This document shows positions 2,198 through 17,615 of a stretch of 35,198 bases of DNA, piece by piece; position 1 is the first letter of the stretch; the number at the start of each line of letters is the position of its first letter. The notes below the pieces were generated by a model. It was not told the origin of the DNA and searched no databases. It saw only the letters and a list, made by a program, of their open reading frames with translations. A program made the position numbers and the translations under genes. Location: the NCBI GenBank assembly GCA_029882995.1, contig JAOUJV010000014.1, positions 1 to 35,198 on the forward strand, read 5' to 3'. Source of the DNA: Gammaproteobacteria bacterium (GTDB lineage Bacteria > Pseudomonadota > Gammaproteobacteria > DAOVJZ01).

Positions 2198-3553
2198 CTA
2201 GTCAATAATATTCAGTGTGGCTTTACCACTGGCTGTATTGCCTGAAGCATCTTCTGTTGATGCGGAAAGCTCAATAACAGAAGTGGTCAAGGTGACTGTA
2301 TTCAGGTTTCCTTGTACTTTTAATGTGTCTCCATTTGCTACAGCAAATCCACCAAAGCCATTTGTGGAAGGTGAAGCATCACAAATATCAGTGGCCGAAT
2401 ATTTTGCCTGGATCCATGAAACATTAGGTCGATCAATTATGGTAACAGCTTCACCAGAGCGTGAATCAACCAGTGCAACATCTATAACAGGAGGTGTTGT
2501 GTCCTGAATAGTTATTGTTTTAGATTCAGAATCAGTCCGACCATCATCTATTTCTACTGTAACTCCAACAGAATGTGTTCCTAATGGTAGAAAGAGGGAT
2601 GCAGATTCACCTGAAGCAACTGTGTTGCCATCAACTTTCCATGAAATATTTGTAATAACAGCATCACTTGGGGATATTACTGCTGATACAGCAACATGAT
2701 TACCACCAGTTGTGGCACATTCTTGTGCTAGTCCACCAGTAACTGACATGCTTACAGTTAATGGAGGTGGTGGCGGTGGTGGCGGAATAATCACTAAATC
2801 TGTACCAGAGAAGATGATGACATTCCATACTTCAAAATAGGGAGCCCCATGAAAGTCTCCCCAATCGCTACCAACATTTGAGCCGGAGACGAGAGTGGCG
2901 CTAAAATCCGGGCGGCCATCACCATTAATATCGCCAAGGTTGGCAATAGGTGTTCCATTTATTGTGCCAGCGGCGTTAGTGGTGGCTCCAGTAGTAAAGC
3001 TTGCCCAGTCTGGCTCAACTTCAACATTCCATCGTCTATCATATAAAAACCCAGCAAATGCGCTGACTGTAGCAAGACGACCTGTTGGAGTAAATGCCAT
3101 GAGGCCTGTTGTTTGATCAATTGTGCCGGTCATACCGGATTGAGGTCCATATTGAGCCAAGTCACCCCCTGCTGTTCTTGGAATGGTGTCTATTTGAAAA
3201 GAAAAATTTGAAAAGGTATTTCCGGATACGTTAATGCCAATTGTGCCAGCATAGCCATCTCCCCCATGAGATGAACCTCTTGGTCCTGCGCCGGTATTAA
3301 CAATAATATTATTGTCAGTCATCAATTGTGATGCGCCGGGTAGAGGAATAGCACCAAATGTAAAAGAAGAATTCCAGGCACCGTCAGTGCCTACATCAGC
3401 GATACCAGGAATTCCCGCATAGTAAGGAGTAGGATTAATCGCAATTGTGTAATCCCCATCCGGTATAATTTGTGCGGATGCTGAGGCTGATATGAGTGCG
3501 CTAGCAAACAGGGTAGATAGAAAAATAGTTTTATTTAATGATTTTAACTTCAT
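2198..3553 (-). CDS. Secreted protein of unknown function with Ca-binding-like loop, octaproline linker and C-terminal Ig/HYR-like region
   Basis: Start at 3553 preceded by AAGGAGT; signal peptide MKLKSLNKTIFLSTLFASALISASASAQ; GDINGDGRPDF loop; PPPPPPPP linker; TPPVIDV...ASTEDASGNTASGKATLNI resembles HYR/Ig-like repeats. ORF-track start at 3589 is upstream of the SD. Confidence 0.8.
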   Translation of the reverse strand: MKLKSLNKTIFLSTLFASALISASASAQIIPDGDYTIAINPTPYYAGIPGIADVGTDGAWNSSFTFGAIPLPGASQLMTDNNIIVNTGAGPRGSSHGGDGYAGTIGINVSGNTFSNFSFQIDTIPRTAGGDLAQYGPQSGMTGTIDQTTGLMAFTPTGRLATVSAFAGFLYDRRWNVEVEPDWASFTTGATTNAAGTINGTPIANLGDINGDGRPDFSATLVSGSNVGSDWGDFHGAPYFEVWNVIIFSGTDLVIIPPPPPPPPLTVSMSVTGGLAQECATTGGNHVAVSAVISPSDAVITNISWKVDGNTVASGESASLFLPLGTHSVGVTVEIDDGRTDSESKTITIQDTTPPVIDVALVDSRSGEAVTIIDRPNVSWIQAKYSATDICDASPSTNGFGGFAVANGDTLKVQGNLNTVTLTTSVIELSASTEDASGNTASGKATLNIID

Positions 3554-6835: not shown

Positions 6836-9676
6836 GTGGCAGACTATAAAGACACATTAAATTTACCCAATACCGCTTTTCCGATGAAAGGCAATCTGGC
6901 CAATCGCGAACCGGAAATGCTCAAACGTTGGGATGAAATGGCGCTATATAAAAAAATGCGTACTGCCGGGCAGGGCAGGGAAAAATTCATACTTCATGAT
7001 GGTCCGCCCTATGCTAACGGCGAAATCCATATTGGTCATGCTCTTAACAAGATTTTGAAAGACATTATTGTTAAATCAAAAACCTTAAGTGGTTTTGATG
7101 CGCCCTATGTACCGGGATGGGACTGTCATGGTTTGCCAATCGAACTTAATGTAGAAAAGAAAGTGGGTAAGGCAGGGGTCAAGGTAGATGCTGCCACCTT
7201 CCGTAAAGAGTGTCGCAATTACGCGGGCAAGCAGGTAGATAATCAGCGTAAGGATTTTATTCGTCTTGGTGTATTGGGTGAATGGGAGAATCCCTATCTC
7301 ACTATGGATTACAAATTTGAAGCCAATATTGTGCGTGCACTGGGACGCATTGCTTCAAAAGGACATCTGGATAAAGGCTTCAAGCCGGTTCACTGGTGTA
7401 CGGATTGCGGCTCGGCATTGGCTGAGGCGGAAGTAGAATACGAGAACCATACTTCACCGGCAATTGATGTGCGTTTTAGTGTGATGGATGAAGCAACCCT
7501 GTTGTCACGTTGTGAGCATGTTCCCGGTCATGACGGCAATGGTCCGATCTCGGTTGTGATCTGGACAACCACTCCATGGACACTACCGGCGAATCAGGGT
7601 GTCGCTGTGAATCCTTCACTTGAATATGTTTTGTTGCAATGTGATCTTGAACATGGAGCTGAACGTTTATTGGTTGCCGATGCACTGGTCAAGGATGTTG
7701 CGTTCCGTTATGACCTCGAAAATTATCGTGTTGTTGCCAATATCAGCGGCAAGGAGCTGGAAGGCATGAAACTGCAACACCCGTTTTACAAGCGTGAAGT
7801 GCCGGTGATTCTGGGTGATCATGTAACAACAGAAGCCGGTACCGGTTGTGTGCATACTGCACCCGGTCATGGTCAGGACGACTATGTGGTGGGCCAACGT
7901 TATGGTTTGCCGGTGGATAATCCGGTGGATAACAACGGCGTATTCAAAACAGGTACTGAATTTTTTGAAGGTATGCATGTGTTCAAGGCAAATGAACATG
8001 TGGTTGAAAAACTCAAGGCTGAAGGCAAGCTGGTACATATGGCTAAACTCAACCACAGTTACCCGCATTGCTGGCGCCACAAGACACCGATTATTTTCCG
8101 AGCGACACCGCAGTGGTTTATCAGCATGGAAAAAAATAATTTACGCAAAACCGCCATGGCGGAAATAAACAATGTGCAATGGATGCCGGACTGGGGACAA
8201 GCACGCATAGAGAGCATGGTGCAAAATCGTCCGGACTGGTGTATCTCACGTCAGCGTACCTGGGGTGTGCCAATTGCCCTGTTTGTCCACAAGGACACAA
8301 GCGAACTGCATCCTGAAACACCGCGCTTGATTGAAGAGGTGGCAAAACGTATTGAACAAAAGGGTATTGATGCCTGGTTTGAACTGGGTGCAGAAGAATT
8401 GCTTGGCAGTGAGTCCGGTGATTACCTGAAAGTCACTGATACACTTGATGTCTGGTTTGACTCCGGTGTGACGCATGTTGGTGTTCTGGAAGAACGTGAC
8501 TATTTACAGTTCCCGGCTGATTTATATCTGGAAGGCTCTGATCAACATCGCGGCTGGTTCCAGTCTTCATTACTGAGTTCAGTCTCGATCAACGATGTAG
8601 CACCCTACAAACAGGTACTGACACATGGTTTTACGGTTGATGCCAAGGGACACAAAATGTCCAAATCAAAGGGCAATGTCGTTGCGCCACAAAAAGTGAT
8701 CAAGACACTGGGTGCCGATATTTTACGCCTTTGGGTAGCGTCAACGGATTATCGTAATGAAATGACCGTGTCGGATGAAATCCTGAAACGCACATCGGAT
8801 TCCTATCGGCGTTTGCGTAACACAGCACGTTTTCTGTTGGCCAACCTGAACGGGTTTGATCCGGAACAACATTTGCTGGCACCCAAAGACATGCTGGCAC
8901 TGGATCGCTGGATTGTGGAACATGCTGAAGCCTTACAAAAGGAAATTGTCACGGCTTATGATAAATACCAGTTCCATCAGATTTATCAGAAGACACATAA
9001 TTTTTGTGTGTCAGAGCTGGGCGGTTTTTATCTTGATGTCATCAAGGACAGACAATACACCACCAGATCGGACAGTCAGGCACGACGTTCGGCACAAAGT
9101 GCGATGTATCATATTGTGCATGCACTGGCACGTTGGCTCGCGCCAATCTTAAGTTTTACCTCGGACGAGATCTGGCAAAATATTCCCGGTGAAACCACAG
9201 AATCAGTCTTTTTATCGACATGGTATGAGTTCCCTGCCTCTGTTACCAAACCGGACGACATGATGGGTAATGGTTTCTGGAATCAGGTACTGGAAATGCG
9301 TGAGGTCGTGAGCAAGGAGCTGGAACGCCTGCGTGTTGCCGGTGGTATTGGTTCGGCACTGGATGCCGAAGTTGATCTTTATTGCGGCACCGAACTGTTC
9401 AAGCGTCTCAAGGCATTGGGCGATGAACTGCGCTTCGTGCTGATCACTTCTTATGCGCGACTCCATCCGGACACAGACAAGACAGACGATGCAGTACATT
9501 TCACCTTAACCAGCAATGACGAACTCTGGGTTGCCGTGAATCCATCAGGGCATGAAAAATGTGTGCGTTGCTGGCATCATCGTGAAGATGTCGGTGGTCA
9601 CAGCGAGCATCCGGAACTATGTGGGCGTTGTGTTGATAACGTGTCTGGTAGTGGCGAAGTGCGGCAATATGCTTAA
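6836..9676 (+). CDS. ileS: Isoleucyl-tRNA synthetase (GTG start)
   Basis: [19 protein letters not shown] (HIGH), KMSKSKGN (KMSKS), C-terminal zinc-finger [11 protein letters not shown]...CGRCV. Confidence 0.98.
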
Positions 9677-9706
9677 TTTATAAATGTAAGTGATATTTTT
9701 TCCATT

Positions 9707-9733
9707 CCCCCTCCCCTTGTGGGAGAGGGAGGG
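9707..9733. repeat. C/G-rich palindromic repeat, copy A (upstream of the DUF559 gene)
   Basis: CCCCCTCCCCTTGTGGGAGAGGGAGGG; shares the 21-nt string TTCCCCCTCCCCTTGTGGGAG (9705-9725) with copy C (10158-10178). Confidence 0.85.
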
Positions 9734-9757
9734 TGTAAAAACACAAGGAGGTGTTGA

Positions 9758-10141
9758 ATGGCAAAGGGATATGCCAGATATTTACGATGTAATCTTACTG
9801 ATGCAGAAAAATTGATTTGGCAATATCTACGCAAACGTCAGTTGTATGGATATAAATTTCGTAGACAACAACCAATCGGAAAATACATAGTCGATTTTGT
9901 CTGTTTTGAAAAGAAATTAGTTATTGAGCTTGATGGTGGACAGCATACAGAGCAAACAAGGTATGATGAACTTCGTACAATATGGTTAAATTCACAAGAG
10001 TTTAACGTTTTAAGATTCTGGAACAATGAAGTGTTTAATGAAACAGAAGCGGTTATTGAAAGGATTGCAGAAATTTTGATTACCCCCACCCTAACCCTCC
10101 CCCATAAAGGGGGAGGGGACAAAGGAAGAAGAATCAAGTAG
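9758..10141 (+). CDS. DUF559-family protein (Vsr-like / PD-(D/E)XK-type nuclease fold)
   Basis: ARYLRCNLTDAEKLIWQYLRKRQLYGYKFRRQQPIGKYIVDFVCFEKKLVIELDGGQH, diagnostic of DUF559; strong SD AAGGAGGTG 5 nt before ATG; C-terminus TPTLTLPHKGGGDKG is encoded by repeat copy B. Confidence 0.93.
   Translation: MAKGYARYLRCNLTDAEKLIWQYLRKRQLYGYKFRRQQPIGKYIVDFVCFEKKLVIELDGGQHTEQTRYDELRTIWLNSQEFNVLRFWNNEVFNETEAVIERIAEILITPTLTLPHKGGGDKGRRIK
10083..10118. repeat. C/G-rich palindromic repeat, copy B (inverted relative to A and C; inside the 3' end of the DUF559 gene)
   Basis: CCCCCACCCTAACCCTCCCCCATAAAGGGGGAGGGG; reverse complement aligns with copy C. Confidence 0.85.
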
Positions 10142-10159
10142 ATTGCCTGCCTTTTAGTT

Positions 10160-10195
10160 CCCCCTCCCCTTGTGGGAGGGGGCTAGGGGGAGGGG
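10160..10195. repeat. C/G-rich palindromic repeat, copy C (between the DUF559 gene and lspA)
   Basis: CCCCCTCCCCTTGTGGGAGGGGGCTAGGGGGAGGGG; direct repeat of A, inverted relative to B. Confidence 0.85.
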
Positions 10196-10220: not shown

Positions 10221-10688
10221 ATGAAAAAATATCTCTGGATATCGGTATTGGTGATTGTGCTCGATCAGATCACCAAGTATCTGGCAAGTAGCCAGCTGGA
10301 TTATGCAGTGCCGGTTGCTGTTATGCCAATGTTCAACTTTACCCTGTTACATAACACCGGTGCGGCATTCAGTTTTTTGAGTGATGCCGGTGGCTGGCAA
10401 CGCTGGTTTTTTGTTGTGCTGGCTCTGGTCATCAGTATCGTATTATTTGTCTGGCTGACAAGGCTTAAGCAACATGAAAAATGGATTGCGATATCACTGT
10501 CATTAATTCTGGGCGGTGCAATTGGCAATGTCATTGATCGTTTCATTTTTGGTTATGTGATCGATTTTCTGGATGTTTATTACAATAACTGGCATTGGCC
10601 GGCATTTAATATTGCGGATTCAGCGATTACTGTGGGTGCAGTGGTGTTGATACTGGAAGGGGTTCTTAAAAAGGAAGAGAAGGCATGA
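10221..10688 (+). CDS. lspA: Lipoprotein signal peptidase (signal peptidase II)
   Basis: MKKYLWISVLVIVLDQITKYL, NTGAAFSFL, GNVIDRFIFGYVIDFL, FNIADSAI; true start ATG 10221 rather than the ORF-track TTG inside repeat C. Confidence 0.96.
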   Translation: MKKYLWISVLVIVLDQITKYLASSQLDYAVPVAVMPMFNFTLLHNTGAAFSFLSDAGGWQRWFFVVLALVISIVLFVWLTRLKQHEKWIAISLSLILGGAIGNVIDRFIFGYVIDFLDVYYNNWHWPAFNIADSAITVGAVVLILEGVLKKEEKA

Positions 10689-12630: not shown

Positions 12631-15600
12631 TTACAAGTCCAGTTCCTGCCATGATTGTCGACCACTTGGGAAACTACCAATTGCAACACATTTACTGGTT
12701 AACTCACCAGTAGAAGATTGAACAATAACACTGACTGTTCCCGGACCACAGGGGCCAGCACCGCCACCGCTGGCACCACCGCTGGCACCATAACCGGTAC
12801 CGCTATGTACAACAGGGGGTGATACCAGGCCTGCGCCCAGATCAATGGATATGTTAGATAGCTCAGTTCCGGGACTGTTGGAAATAGTGGAATCAAATCC
12901 CAGAGCACCAAATGTGGTTGCAGTCCCTGTTTTATAATTCACGGCATAAAGATCACTTGAGCCTTCAGTGTCGCATTCATTTGATGAAGGCAAGTAATCA
13001 GAGAACAGCAATAAACTGCTGATACGGGTAGAAGTAGTTACATTTCTTGATGATGGATTTGTTCCATCATAAATCAGATCCAGTTTCCAGCCCTTCCAGT
13101 TGTCTTCAATTTCCTGTTCCAGTTCACTCGCTGTAGTTGGAACCGGAGACAGACCAGATGCAGCGAGAGAGCCGCCTGTATCCAGAATTGAACTGTCGTT
13201 AAATGTCTGAACACCGCTTACATCCAGCAAATCTGTTGTCAGAACGGTAGCCCATGTAAATGCTCCACCGCTTTCAGGTTCTTTAATACCATAAAAATCC
13301 TGTTGTACGGTACTGGACGCGTCACCTGATACAAACATACGACCGGTGCCAAAGAACACCCAGTCATCACCATCTTCATCTGTTCCTGTAGAAACAGCAG
13401 AAGTAATTGCCTGATTGGGATCGAACAATGTGCTGAAAGTATTGAGTTCAAGCCGCAAGCGTTCCAGTGTTCCAGTCGGGCTGGAAACAGAACCACTAAC
13501 AGTCCCGAAATACACTGCATCGTCGATAAAGTCATTGTTCCAGTCAACGGTTTTCATATCACCTGTAAAGCTGGCAGTGGCGGCATCACCTGTAATATTT
13601 GCAGTACCATCAAAGCCGGTTTCGAAAGCCTTGGTATTCAGGTTGTATTTATACAACCGCGCACCTTGCAGAGGAGCAGTAACCGTTGTCAGATCGGTAG
13701 GACCAGAACCAAATACCAGATACCAGTCGTCTGCATCAGGTGTTTCCCAGTTTCCACTACCATCTGGCACACGTTTTCTGACAACAGAAGGTTTACTGGT
13801 AGTAAAGCCAAGATTGGCATTCGTAATTTCTGCAATGACGTGGGGCTCTTTTTCCGGATCAGTGACATCAAAAATCACATAAGCGGAACGGGAAGTTGTG
13901 TCATTTGTTCCATCTCCATCGGCATCATAAGTGATACTGCCGCCACCCAGTCGCATACCGATTACCATAATCGTTCCCCAGCCTTTAACATGGTTAATAC
14001 CGTTGGTATCAACACCCGGTGTAAATATATTGGCATCAAACACCAGAGGGGCACCATCCATATAATAAACATGAGGGTAATTAATTTCGGTTAACCACCG
14101 CAGGTGTGGCAACAGATTCATGGGAATATAGGACCACAATTCAGCACCCAGATTATGAGCAGTATTGGTTCCGCTTGTAGTATCAAAGCGTTTGCTTGCG
14201 GCATTCCAGAAACCGCCGTTAAATGCATGTACCATACCGTCATTGGCACCCAGATAAATCATCTGACGTCTGTTTTTATAATATTCCCTGAATTCCTTAT
14301 AAGTGGTATCACCATAGGTGGTATCGTAACCCTCAGCAGGTTCACCAACAACGACGGGTGTAGAGTGAATAATGTCACCAAGTAAGTAATAGGTATCAAC
14401 TGAACCGTTGCCATCAGTATCCAGCGAGCGTGGACGATAACCGGTTATCCCTTCCTCACCGCGAATAAAATCCACCACATTATCTGCATTAACATCAGTT
14501 ACTTCCAGATGACGATACAGGCTTGCAGTGCATGCACCACCTGAATAATTACAGAAATTATCTTTGGTGAAGGCAATAATCTCTGCATCTTCTACTGTGC
14601 TATTAATGGTCCCACCATTAGCACCATCAACCCAGGTTTTAATCCAGCGTCCACTGCTGGCATTGTCTGTATAGTTGCTACGATTGGCGGTATAAGTTGT
14701 AAGACCAGCCAATTGATCTTGCGCATTCCAGATAGGCACAATATTAATCAAATCAACTGTTGAGCCTACATTGGTAAAGGTCACGCCATTGTCTGCAGAA
14801 CTTTGTCTTTGTACAACCGTTTTGTCATTGGCTGAATCGTAACTGAAGATAAGCCTGTAGTCGGTTGTATAACCATCCAGCTGATCATTGGCATTACTGT
14901 CTTCACGGAACAGCCCCTTGTCATCAATAAAGATGGAATGCAGGAATCCAACCCAGGTAATATCATTACTACTACCAGTTACCAGAGGTTGATACAATGC
15001 CTGATAGATTGCCCCGACACCTGATGAGTTGTTGGAAACAACCGCCGCAGCCGTACCGGAAGAGACTCTTTCAGAAATAGCATTGAAAATCTGTTTCAAC
15101 CGATTTTCCAGGTTTGATGCATTGGTGACCAGAAAATAGTTATCAGGAATCCCGTCGGCACCAGCTCCACCGGTGTTATTATTTAATGCATCCCATTCCG
15201 ATGTGATATCGGGCTGATTATCACCATCTGAATCAGCAAAGCCACCGTACTTTGCGGCGTACCATAACGGGCTTTCAAGTAGTGCAGTGGTACTTGCACC
15301 TGCACCATGTGTACGAACACCACGCAAGTCACGGGTAATGCCATCTAAAAAGAAATTTACTGTAGCGCAACTAGTTTCGCTACCACTAGCAGGATATACA
15401 ACGGCGCCACAGCTTGCATTAATTGCAGCCTGAGTGGTTGTATAGTCACCACCGAGACCATCTGCTTGTTGAGTATTGGTGGCAGAGTCACGGTTGGAAG
15501 CCAGATAATAAGTGCCTGCATCCGTTACACCATCAATAATGTACCCCATGTGCATGGTTGCACCGGCTGAAGAACCGGTATTGTAGGCAGTAATGGAAAT

Positions 15601-17544
15601 ATTACTGCCAATTACTTCATATTTGAGGTAACCCTTGAAATCAGAGTCGTGGTCGGCACCGGCAGGCGCATTTTCAAAGTTCATGAAAAATTCACCGGTA
15701 GTCGCGGTATGACTGATGACCTTGAAATTTACAATTGGCATATCGTTCTCATCACGCCAGTTATATCCAACCGGAATAATTTTTACAGTATTACTACCGA
15801 CATTCACACTCAGCTCCGGTCTTGGAGATGCGAGTGAGACCGAGAATGTGTCAACAATCTGGCTACCTGATATTGTCGATCTGATATCATTTTTATGAGC
15901 AAAATAAGACATACCGGCAATCTTGTATGAGCCTTCCAGACCAGCGGCATCAGGACAGAGCCCCGAAACACTGTCCAGAGTGTTTACTGTAGTGGAACTA
16001 CAGGTGTCACTCGCCGAGCCGCCTGTAGTACTGCCCACATAATATTGATTACCATTAATCCCCTCCAACGTACCAATTGCATTGGTTTCCGTTGTAATAT
16101 TCAGACCAGTAATATCACTGGCACCGCCATATTCATCATCATCAAAGGATATTGAGCCGGATGAAAAATTAATGATATTAGGAGCAGAACAACTCGGGTA
16201 ACCCAGACCACCGCTGGCAATAGCAATATAGGGATCTTTCCATGTCGCTGTCGTCAGCGTGCTTATATAGGTTGAATCAGTTGCACTATAGGATGCGGAG
16301 GCCGCAGCCCCGGTAAGATAACGCAGGGATTCCAGATACATTTCACCAATCGGATTACCCCAGTTAACACAGTCATCATTAAGCCAGGAGTTTTGTCCAT
16401 AATTACAACTATCATAAATATTGTAACCAGTGGGGGGGGCACCGGATTTATAAGTTGATATACGTAAGGCGTTCAGTGTGGATATAATGCCATCAGTATT
16501 AGTAAACTTACCGTTAGTTTGATTAATTTCATCAGTAATAGTTGAGATGTTTTTTCTCAAAACACCGCCAGATTTCCCCTTGGAATAACTGCCGGTCATT
16601 AAACCGAAGTGAATGGTGTCACTTTCAGCATAGGTTTGTAGTAAGCCAGTTGGTTTGTAACGATTAGTACCTGAATCGAAATAAATTTTACAAGATTCTG
16701 TGCCAAGATATGAAGCATTGCAGACCTCTACTCTTATTGTAAATTCACCAACATATTGTGCAGCATTACCAGTATTAGGGCTTGATGAGCTGGCCTGTTC
16801 ATTATCCCACAGGCATTGTTCTCCTTCCTGTGAGTCCCAGTTCGCCCATTCGCCCTTTCCCACACGCATGCTTGGTGGGTTAGTATTATTCTTTGAATCA
16901 GCACCATTCGGTGTTGTTACATTACAGAAGGTAAGCCCATCAGGATAGTTTACGCTGAGATAGGGTGTGTATTTGTTAATATCGTTACCAGCATTGGCAT
17001 AGTATTTTGCCCATGCATGAGCATCACTTGGAATATAGGCACGTTCAAGTACTGTTTTTGATATAGTGTCAGTTGAGCGTTTACCGCCATAGAGTACCTT
17101 GCGTAAAATATCCATGCGTGACATGGATATCCAGTTCAGGAAGTTGCCACTCCAGCTACTGGCCGTACCATCACAGTGATGGTTATTTGTGCCTGTAGCA
17201 GTACCTGCGGGATTAAACTCACCACCTGATGAAGTGCTATAGGTATAGCACTTCTCCGGATCAAAATAGCCATAATAATCGACAGTGTCGTTATACGTCT
17301 TATCATCATCCAGTGAACCATCACCATCCAGATCATCATAGTCTGTATAGGCTTTGTAAAACAGCTGGTGATCGTTGGATACATTCAGCATCACAATCGG
17401 TGTGGCTGTCTGATTGATAATGGGCGGTTCAGCGGCAAAGTCACTGGAAGTGGCTGCAATGCTAACGGATGAAATCAGTAACAGCACAAAATTAACCATG
17501 TAGCGTGCTGATAATTTTATCTGGTCATATTTTTTCATCTTCAT
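12631..17544 (-). CDS. pilY1: PilY1-family type IV pilus tip-associated protein
   Basis: About 1637 aa; signal sequence; C-terminal beta-propeller-type region ([45 protein letters not shown]); Ca-loop motif DVNADNVVD; between pilX and pilE. A GTG start at 17553 is possible. Confidence 0.95.
16432..16439. repeat. G8 homopolymer (C8 on coding strand) inside pilY1
   Basis: ACCAGTGGGGGGGGCACC; encodes Ala-Pro-Pro (GCC CCC CCC). Confidence 0.9.
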
Positions 17545-17615
17545 AGCATTCACCTTGTTTACTCCAAATCAATATCTTGAAAACAGATACAAACTTGGGT
17601 TCCTTAAAAATCTGT

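Follow-up and report, generated by a model that had tools for sequence, protein, structure and literature searches.

DUF559 nuclease genes and inverted triplex-type repeats: a candidate selfish unit inserted between ileS and lspA

The locus considered here raises the question of why a small gene and three palindromes should lie between ileS and lspA, and whether the gene and the palindromes belong together. The DNA analysed, referred to below as the window, is the whole 35,198-nt stretch of contig JAOUJV010000014.1 (assembly GCA_029882995.1) from a Gammaproteobacteria bacterium. Within it, 544 nt separate the end of ileS (9676) from the start of lspA (10221), and this gap is filled by a single DUF559 (PF04480) open reading frame and three C/G-rich palindromes, designated A, B and C. 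The features of the region, in order, are:

6836..9676, + strand: ileS, the upstream operon gene (Pfam tRNA-synt_1 and IleRS zinc finger)
9705..9733, + strand: repeat A, a hairpin upstream of the DUF559 gene, with a degenerate or truncated third purine strand
9745..9753, + strand: Shine-Dalgarno sequence AAGGAGGTG of the DUF559 gene, strong, 4 nt 5′ of the ATG, as read from the sequence
9758..10141, + strand: DUF559 gene (PF04480, E 5e-43; YcjD-like), 127 aa, a predicted PD-(D/E)XK/EDxHD-type nuclease
about 9764-10075, + strand: DUF559 domain (PF04480)
10084..10119, − strand: repeat B, inverted, with the complete four-part layout of a triplex-type repeat, its tail toward the DUF559 gene
10158..10195, + strand: repeat C, with the complete four-part layout of a triplex-type repeat
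10221..10688, + strand: lspA, the downstream operon gene (Peptidase_A8)

These coordinates and the PF04480 match bear out the original prediction that the gap contains a DUF559 gene with its own strong Shine-Dalgarno sequence and three palindromes, and its description of A and C as direct copies and of B as inverted also holds in the sequence. A and C have a 21-nt string in common (TTCCCCCTCCCCTTGTGGGAG), and the 17-mer CCCTCCCCTTGTGGGAG has only two sites in the window, one in A and one in C, where 0.05 would be expected (up to 3 mismatches allowed). The order is A(+), the DUF559 gene, B(−) and then, farther out, C(+). The gene had also been described as packaged between the repeats. This flanking arrangement is real, but the 3′ end of the DUF559 reading frame translates through copy B (ITPTLTLPHKGGG), so that B lies inside the annotated ORF, and A has lost most of its third purine strand. 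B and C are composed of a pyrimidine arm, a short loop, a purine arm and, after 3 nt, a second purine tract in mirror orientation to it; this four-part layout is absent from A. The core of the DUF559 gene has a G+C content of 34%, compared with 46% for the window. No transposase was found inside the DUF559-repeat unit at ileS-lspA, and no target duplication is recognisable there. PADLOC gave no match, and Rfam returned sub-threshold matches only, mostly to miRNA and snoRNA families. The longest ORF in the window, at 12631-17553 on the − strand, encodes 1,640 aa.

In profile searches, the protein matched PF04480 with 145.9 bits (curated cut-off, 20.6), confirming its predicted assignment as a PD-(D/E)XK-like DUF559 protein; only the DUF559 and MTES_1575 profiles match it. 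Residues D46, E57, D59 and H63, among others, are invariant in 28 homologues. The DUF559 core gives a gapless alignment with the endonuclease-like protein of PDB 3hrl (E 2e-33), and profile comparison relates it distantly to the homing endonuclease I-Bth0305I (PDB 3r3p; E 3e-5). These similarities, together with the invariant acidic and histidine core, make nuclease activity of the window protein likely. DUF559 has been placed in the EDxHD homing-endonuclease family (PMC9403480), and a selfish nuclease of this kind would account for DUF559 insertions; both filled and empty alleles exist. I-Bth0305I itself is multi-domain and intron-borne and recognises a target of nearly 60 bp (PMC3943268), whereas the window protein comprises just a domain of about 105 aa, is encoded between repeats and is associated with neither an intron nor an intein. 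DUF559 is also related to Vsr (PMC1189080), and the mismatch endonucleases Vsr and VsrA have a fold superfamily in common with it. The Caulobacter protein VsrA, which has a DUF559 domain, brings about an SOS response in vivo in cells that lack a solitary cytosine methyltransferase (PMC12907096), and in Legionella, transposase/DUF559 segments are recombination hotspots (PMC12308824).

The anatomy of the repeats is that of a published class, the intrastrand triplex motif (TM_ECO, PIT or box C), in which a pyrimidine arm, a loop and a purine arm are accompanied by a third purine strand. The original prediction had recognised the repeats as palindromic, correctly, but had overlooked this class and the third purine strand as the common feature. 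As described by Holder et al. in 2015 (PMC4666352), TM_ECO likewise consists of a C-arm, loop, G-arm, 3 nt and second G-arm, is intergenic, occurs in inverted pairs and lies at unstable loci. In vitro the motif folds into a stable triplex, 3,610 copies were counted in 262 proteobacterial genomes, and two E. coli strains had 29 copies and 1 copy, respectively (PMC4666352). The same authors found no mobility gene near the motifs, and their paper mentions neither DUF559 nor YcjD (PMC4666352). The published TM_ECO sequence, CCCTCNCCCN3-6GGGNGAGGGN3GGGNGAGGG, is not matched exactly by the window copies, in which the stem is CCCCCTCCC as against CCCTCNCCC; exact copies occur elsewhere in the window genome, 5 forward and 4 reverse. 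By their layout, B and C are putative triplex-type repeats. In the accessible literature, which included few subscription journals or preprints, we found no report that ties DUF559 or any other enzyme to intrastrand triplex repeats.

That DUF559 genes often sit beside such repeats had been put forward as general background; it is now strongly supported, and quantified with controls. In 60 DUF559 loci drawn evenly over the phylum, hairpins with a pyrimidine and a purine arm occurred at 3.88/kb within 250 bp of DUF559 and at 0.13/kb more than 1 kb away, a 29-fold difference. Repeats were present on both sides of DUF559 at 29 of the 60 loci, compared with 6 of 516 control ORFs from the same loci (odds 80, p 2e-26), and inverted similarity between the flanks (score of at least 20) was detected for 32/60 DUF559 genes and 3/516 control ORFs. 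At least one repeat was found in 87 of 95 DUF559 loci in a set that includes cyanobacterial and Deinococcus plasmids and Neisseria, and the pairing recurs in at least three bacterial phyla. Genes for the related nuclease Vsr (PF03852), unlike those for DUF559, lack the association and are a clean negative control, with repeats upstream in 1/28, downstream in 1/28 and on both sides in 0/28. The link between DUF559 and the repeats is general and specific. Similarity of the repeat arms was correlated with similarity of the DUF559 proteins (Mantel rho 0.38, 0/500 permutations, phylogeny uncontrolled).

Hairpins near the gene were pyrimidine-first in 132 of 132 cases at the 60 loci, against 93:28 in the background. 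A crude test over all hairpins gave no bias in the orientation of the tail. When the nearest repeat was considered and its mirror third strand scored, that strand faced inward for 36 of the 42 upstream repeats that could be scored and for 39 of 44 downstream (p 2e-12, which is not the p of a pre-planned test, as this one was devised after the crude test had been seen). Complete nearest-repeat pairs were (+,−) in 21 cases and (−,+) in 1. The orientation of the nearest repeats is fixed and inverted. At one Neisseria gonorrhoeae locus (L060), hairpin pairs recurring every 281 bp or so form a tandem array of at least 3 units 3′ of the DUF559 gene, from about position 3480.

Gene and repeat also occur together at the level of whole genomes. 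A strong DUF559 match (E < 1e-20) and the published TM_ECO pattern were both present in 45 of 349 genomes; 43 had DUF559 only, 18 the pattern only, and 243 lacked both (odds 14, p 4e-18). A second set comprised 114 genomes of the same class, almost every one from a different family, and was scanned with a looser repeat pattern; the corresponding numbers were 18/3/20/73 (both/DUF559 only/TM only/neither; odds 22, p 6e-8), and in both tests phylogeny was ignored beyond the sampling design. Vsr and the motif were not significantly associated across genomes (odds 1.7, p 0.13), and a reversed repeat pattern gave almost no matches in the genomes scanned. The window genome (2.42 Mb) has one DUF559 gene and 13 copies of the wider repeat class at about 8 sites; 3 copies are at ileS-lspA, and some of the repeats are solo inverted pairs. 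The original prediction allowed that repeats scattered through the genome might have no link to DUF559; repeats do occur elsewhere in the genome, yet the link across genomes is strong.

Among the places listed, strict TMs are the immediate neighbours of DUF559 in G144, G171 (two genes), G266, G270, G330 and G389. Of the inward TM pairs listed, the 4 with a spacing of 385-424 bp all have DUF559 between them; the other 11 are spaced by 51-155 bp and are solo forms. The strict motif is absent in about half of the DUF559 genomes, and dozens of repeats occur with no detected DUF559 gene in G048, G094, G046, G162 and G247, so that variant repeats or loss have to be postulated; the repeat-rich genomes may have lost the enzyme or may use a different one. 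Weak DUF559-like matches in G004, G007, G047, G069, G073 and G102 lie in ORFs of about 1,000-1,850 aa, unlike the small repeat-flanked form.

Comparison with G001, a sister species and the only genome of the same genus among the relatives sampled, shows insertion polymorphism in operon junctions. The ileS stop of G001 overlaps its lspA start, providing the empty site in a relative for which the original prediction had called. At lspA-fkpB, G001 carries a DUF559 gene 79% identical to that of the window, with repeats of a like type; another DUF559 gene, whose repeats are of a different type, lies at nuoM-nuoN. The lspA-fkpB junction of the window genome is empty, lspA overlapping fkpB (10685), and its nuoM-nuoN junction is an ordinary short gap. 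At each of the three junctions, only one of the two sister species carries an insert. Repeat C is identical over 36 nt to the repeat adjoining the G001 DUF559 gene. DUF559 also lies at differing junctions of the hpa cluster on two Deinococcus plasmids.

The E. coli member of the family is YcjD, encoded between sapF and fabI, and the repeats adjoining ycjD have the TM_ECO form. We take these repeats to be the box C elements described beside envM (fabI), and TM_ECO is presumably the box C of E. coli. The 1992 envM paper, as represented in Holder et al., is among the earlier notes of the motif (PMC4666352). A sapF-ycjD-fabI query was at least 80% covered at one place in 3,335 of 5,426 complete E. 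coli genomes. In 60 strains spread down the ranking, with box C-like places counted by a composite BLAST query, the median number of such places was 18 in 37 ycjD+ strains and 4 in 23 ycjD− strains (p 2e-9; confounded by phylogroup); one ycjD− strain has 18. The ycjD− strains do not represent a clean empty site, because an efflux operon occupies the sapF-fabI site (cf. PMC12817139). In E. coli K-12 ER2796 (L062, 1900-2150), a partial copy of the ycjD 3′ end (ATGGAGACGGTGCTGGAGAATATTCGG...) lies 3′ of ycjD and is followed by a box C-type repeat and then fabI. PLSDB files some chromosome-sized records as plasmids (NZ_CP141089, NZ_OL790696 and NZ_CP119142; E. coli of 4.8-4.9 Mb and N. gonorrhoeae of 2.2 Mb).

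The arrangement had been likened to RAYT/REP systems, an analogy that is sustained by anatomy, genome-level co-occurrence and solo copies but lacks the defining HUH enzyme. In RAYT/REP (REPIN; Nunvar 2010, PMC2817692), the enzyme gene likewise lies between inverted palindromic repeats, solo repeat copies are dispersed and partly form inverted pairs, and presence of the enzyme correlates with presence of the repeat. Repeat type there tracks enzyme type, for which a possible DUF559 counterpart is the phylogenetically uncontrolled correlation given above. The RAYT enzyme, however, is an HUH/Y1 tyrosine transposase related to IS200/IS605, whereas that of the window is of the DUF559 PD-(D/E)XK type. 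The GTAG head tetranucleotide of REPs is absent from A, B and C, the DUF559 repeats being of the pyrimidine/purine triplex type; their copy numbers are lower than those of REPs (13 in the window genome), and mobilisation of the DUF559 unit is putative.

Explanations other than a cognate pairing of nuclease and repeat have to be weighed against these data. Palindromes might arise by chance or from base composition, but the within-locus, other-gene, Vsr, reversed-pattern and polarity controls reject this reading, which is left with no support and next to no probability. The repeats might also be unconnected with the enzyme and serve as terminators, insulators or stabilisers of mRNA on either side of an inserted gene. 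Strong hairpins do stand at both ends of the insert, and the B-C pair as a single strand folds better than 200 of 200 shuffles; such a role is nonetheless very improbable, since the repeats occur on either side of the gene, invariably have the pyrimidine arm first, do not flank Vsr and, unlike intrinsic terminators, are not followed by T-runs in the window sequence. An earlier study, as cited by Holder et al., found the motif to be without promoter or terminator activity (PMC4666352). We also consider it quite unlikely that DUF559 serves in repair or restriction, as a Vsr-like or structure-specific nuclease, with repeats that are processed by it or regulate it and have no role in mobility. Its kinship with Vsr (PMC1189080), the SOS response caused by Caulobacter VsrA (PMC12907096) and the nature of triplex motifs as instability sites (PMC4666352) would agree with such a function, but true Vsr genes are without repeats, and the patchy presence, the low G+C content of the gene relative to the window and the shifting operon junctions look selfish rather than housekeeping.

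A different possibility is that DUF559 does not drive the movement, and that a MITE or IS moved in trans by a conventional transposase carries the gene and its repeats as passive cargo. In one genome (G033; L035, L052, L053 and L179), three near-identical DUF559 copies of 494-532 bp and one internally deleted copy have terminal inverted repeats CAAAGGTATCTACACAAG in common, with apparent 9-bp flanking duplications (GTGCAGATT and GTTTGTAAC). The CAAAGGTATCTACACAAG ends also bound elements without DUF559, and for this reason mobilisation of cargo in trans stays a live rival, if an unlikely one; a search for a transposase for the G033 ends found none. Because the ends are common to non-DUF559 elements, the 9-bp duplications were downgraded as proof of self-driven transposition. 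Against passive cargo, the other loci examined have no G033-type outer ends, the C/G repeats being their outermost common feature, and cargo status leaves unexplained why the repeats flank DUF559 rather than Vsr or other genes. The G033 DUF559 elements are inserted into another dispersed repeat, which contains GTTTGTAAC.

A unit of repeat plus cognate nuclease is the best reading, because of the inverted end repeats, the short relatives, the insertion polymorphism and the specificity relative to Vsr. On balance, the DUF559 nuclease and its repeat probably form a cognate pair that spreads together; that they do so by a specific break-repair (homing-like) route is possible but rather doubtful. 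Enzymes of the PD-(D/E)XK superfamily make breaks and do not themselves join strands, so the most economical route would be a cut at the repeat followed by copying through host repair. In such a scheme, a DUF559 nuclease gene between two inward-facing triplex (box C-type) repeats would constitute one selfish mobile unit. The nuclease would recognise the repeat as a hairpin, as a triplex or as the duplex that encodes them, and would cut at or near it. Host break repair would then copy the unit, or the repeat pair alone, into repeat-bearing or new intergenic sites, and the scattered short repeat-spacer-repeat pairs would be the non-autonomous form.

For the family as a whole, the best reading is an association of DUF559 with triplex repeats that extends throughout it, a RAYT/REP-like selfish unit with an unrelated enzyme. 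The data suggest that the DUF559 nuclease is the missing enzyme of a widespread orphan repeat, the box C or intrastrand triplex motif. A broader proposal, which we advance with reserve as falling somewhat short of an even chance, is that DUF559/YcjD proteins are the cognate enzymes of box C/triplex repeats throughout bacteria. This would be a second REP-type system of independent evolutionary origin: a metal-dependent nuclease recognising the triplex or hairpin would spread the short repeats via host break repair, without transposase chemistry. DUF559 proteins, including YcjD, and the orphan triplex repeats would each gain a testable partner, in laboratory E. coli. If this is true, a second enzyme class, besides the HUH RAYTs, would be linked to short palindromic repeats.
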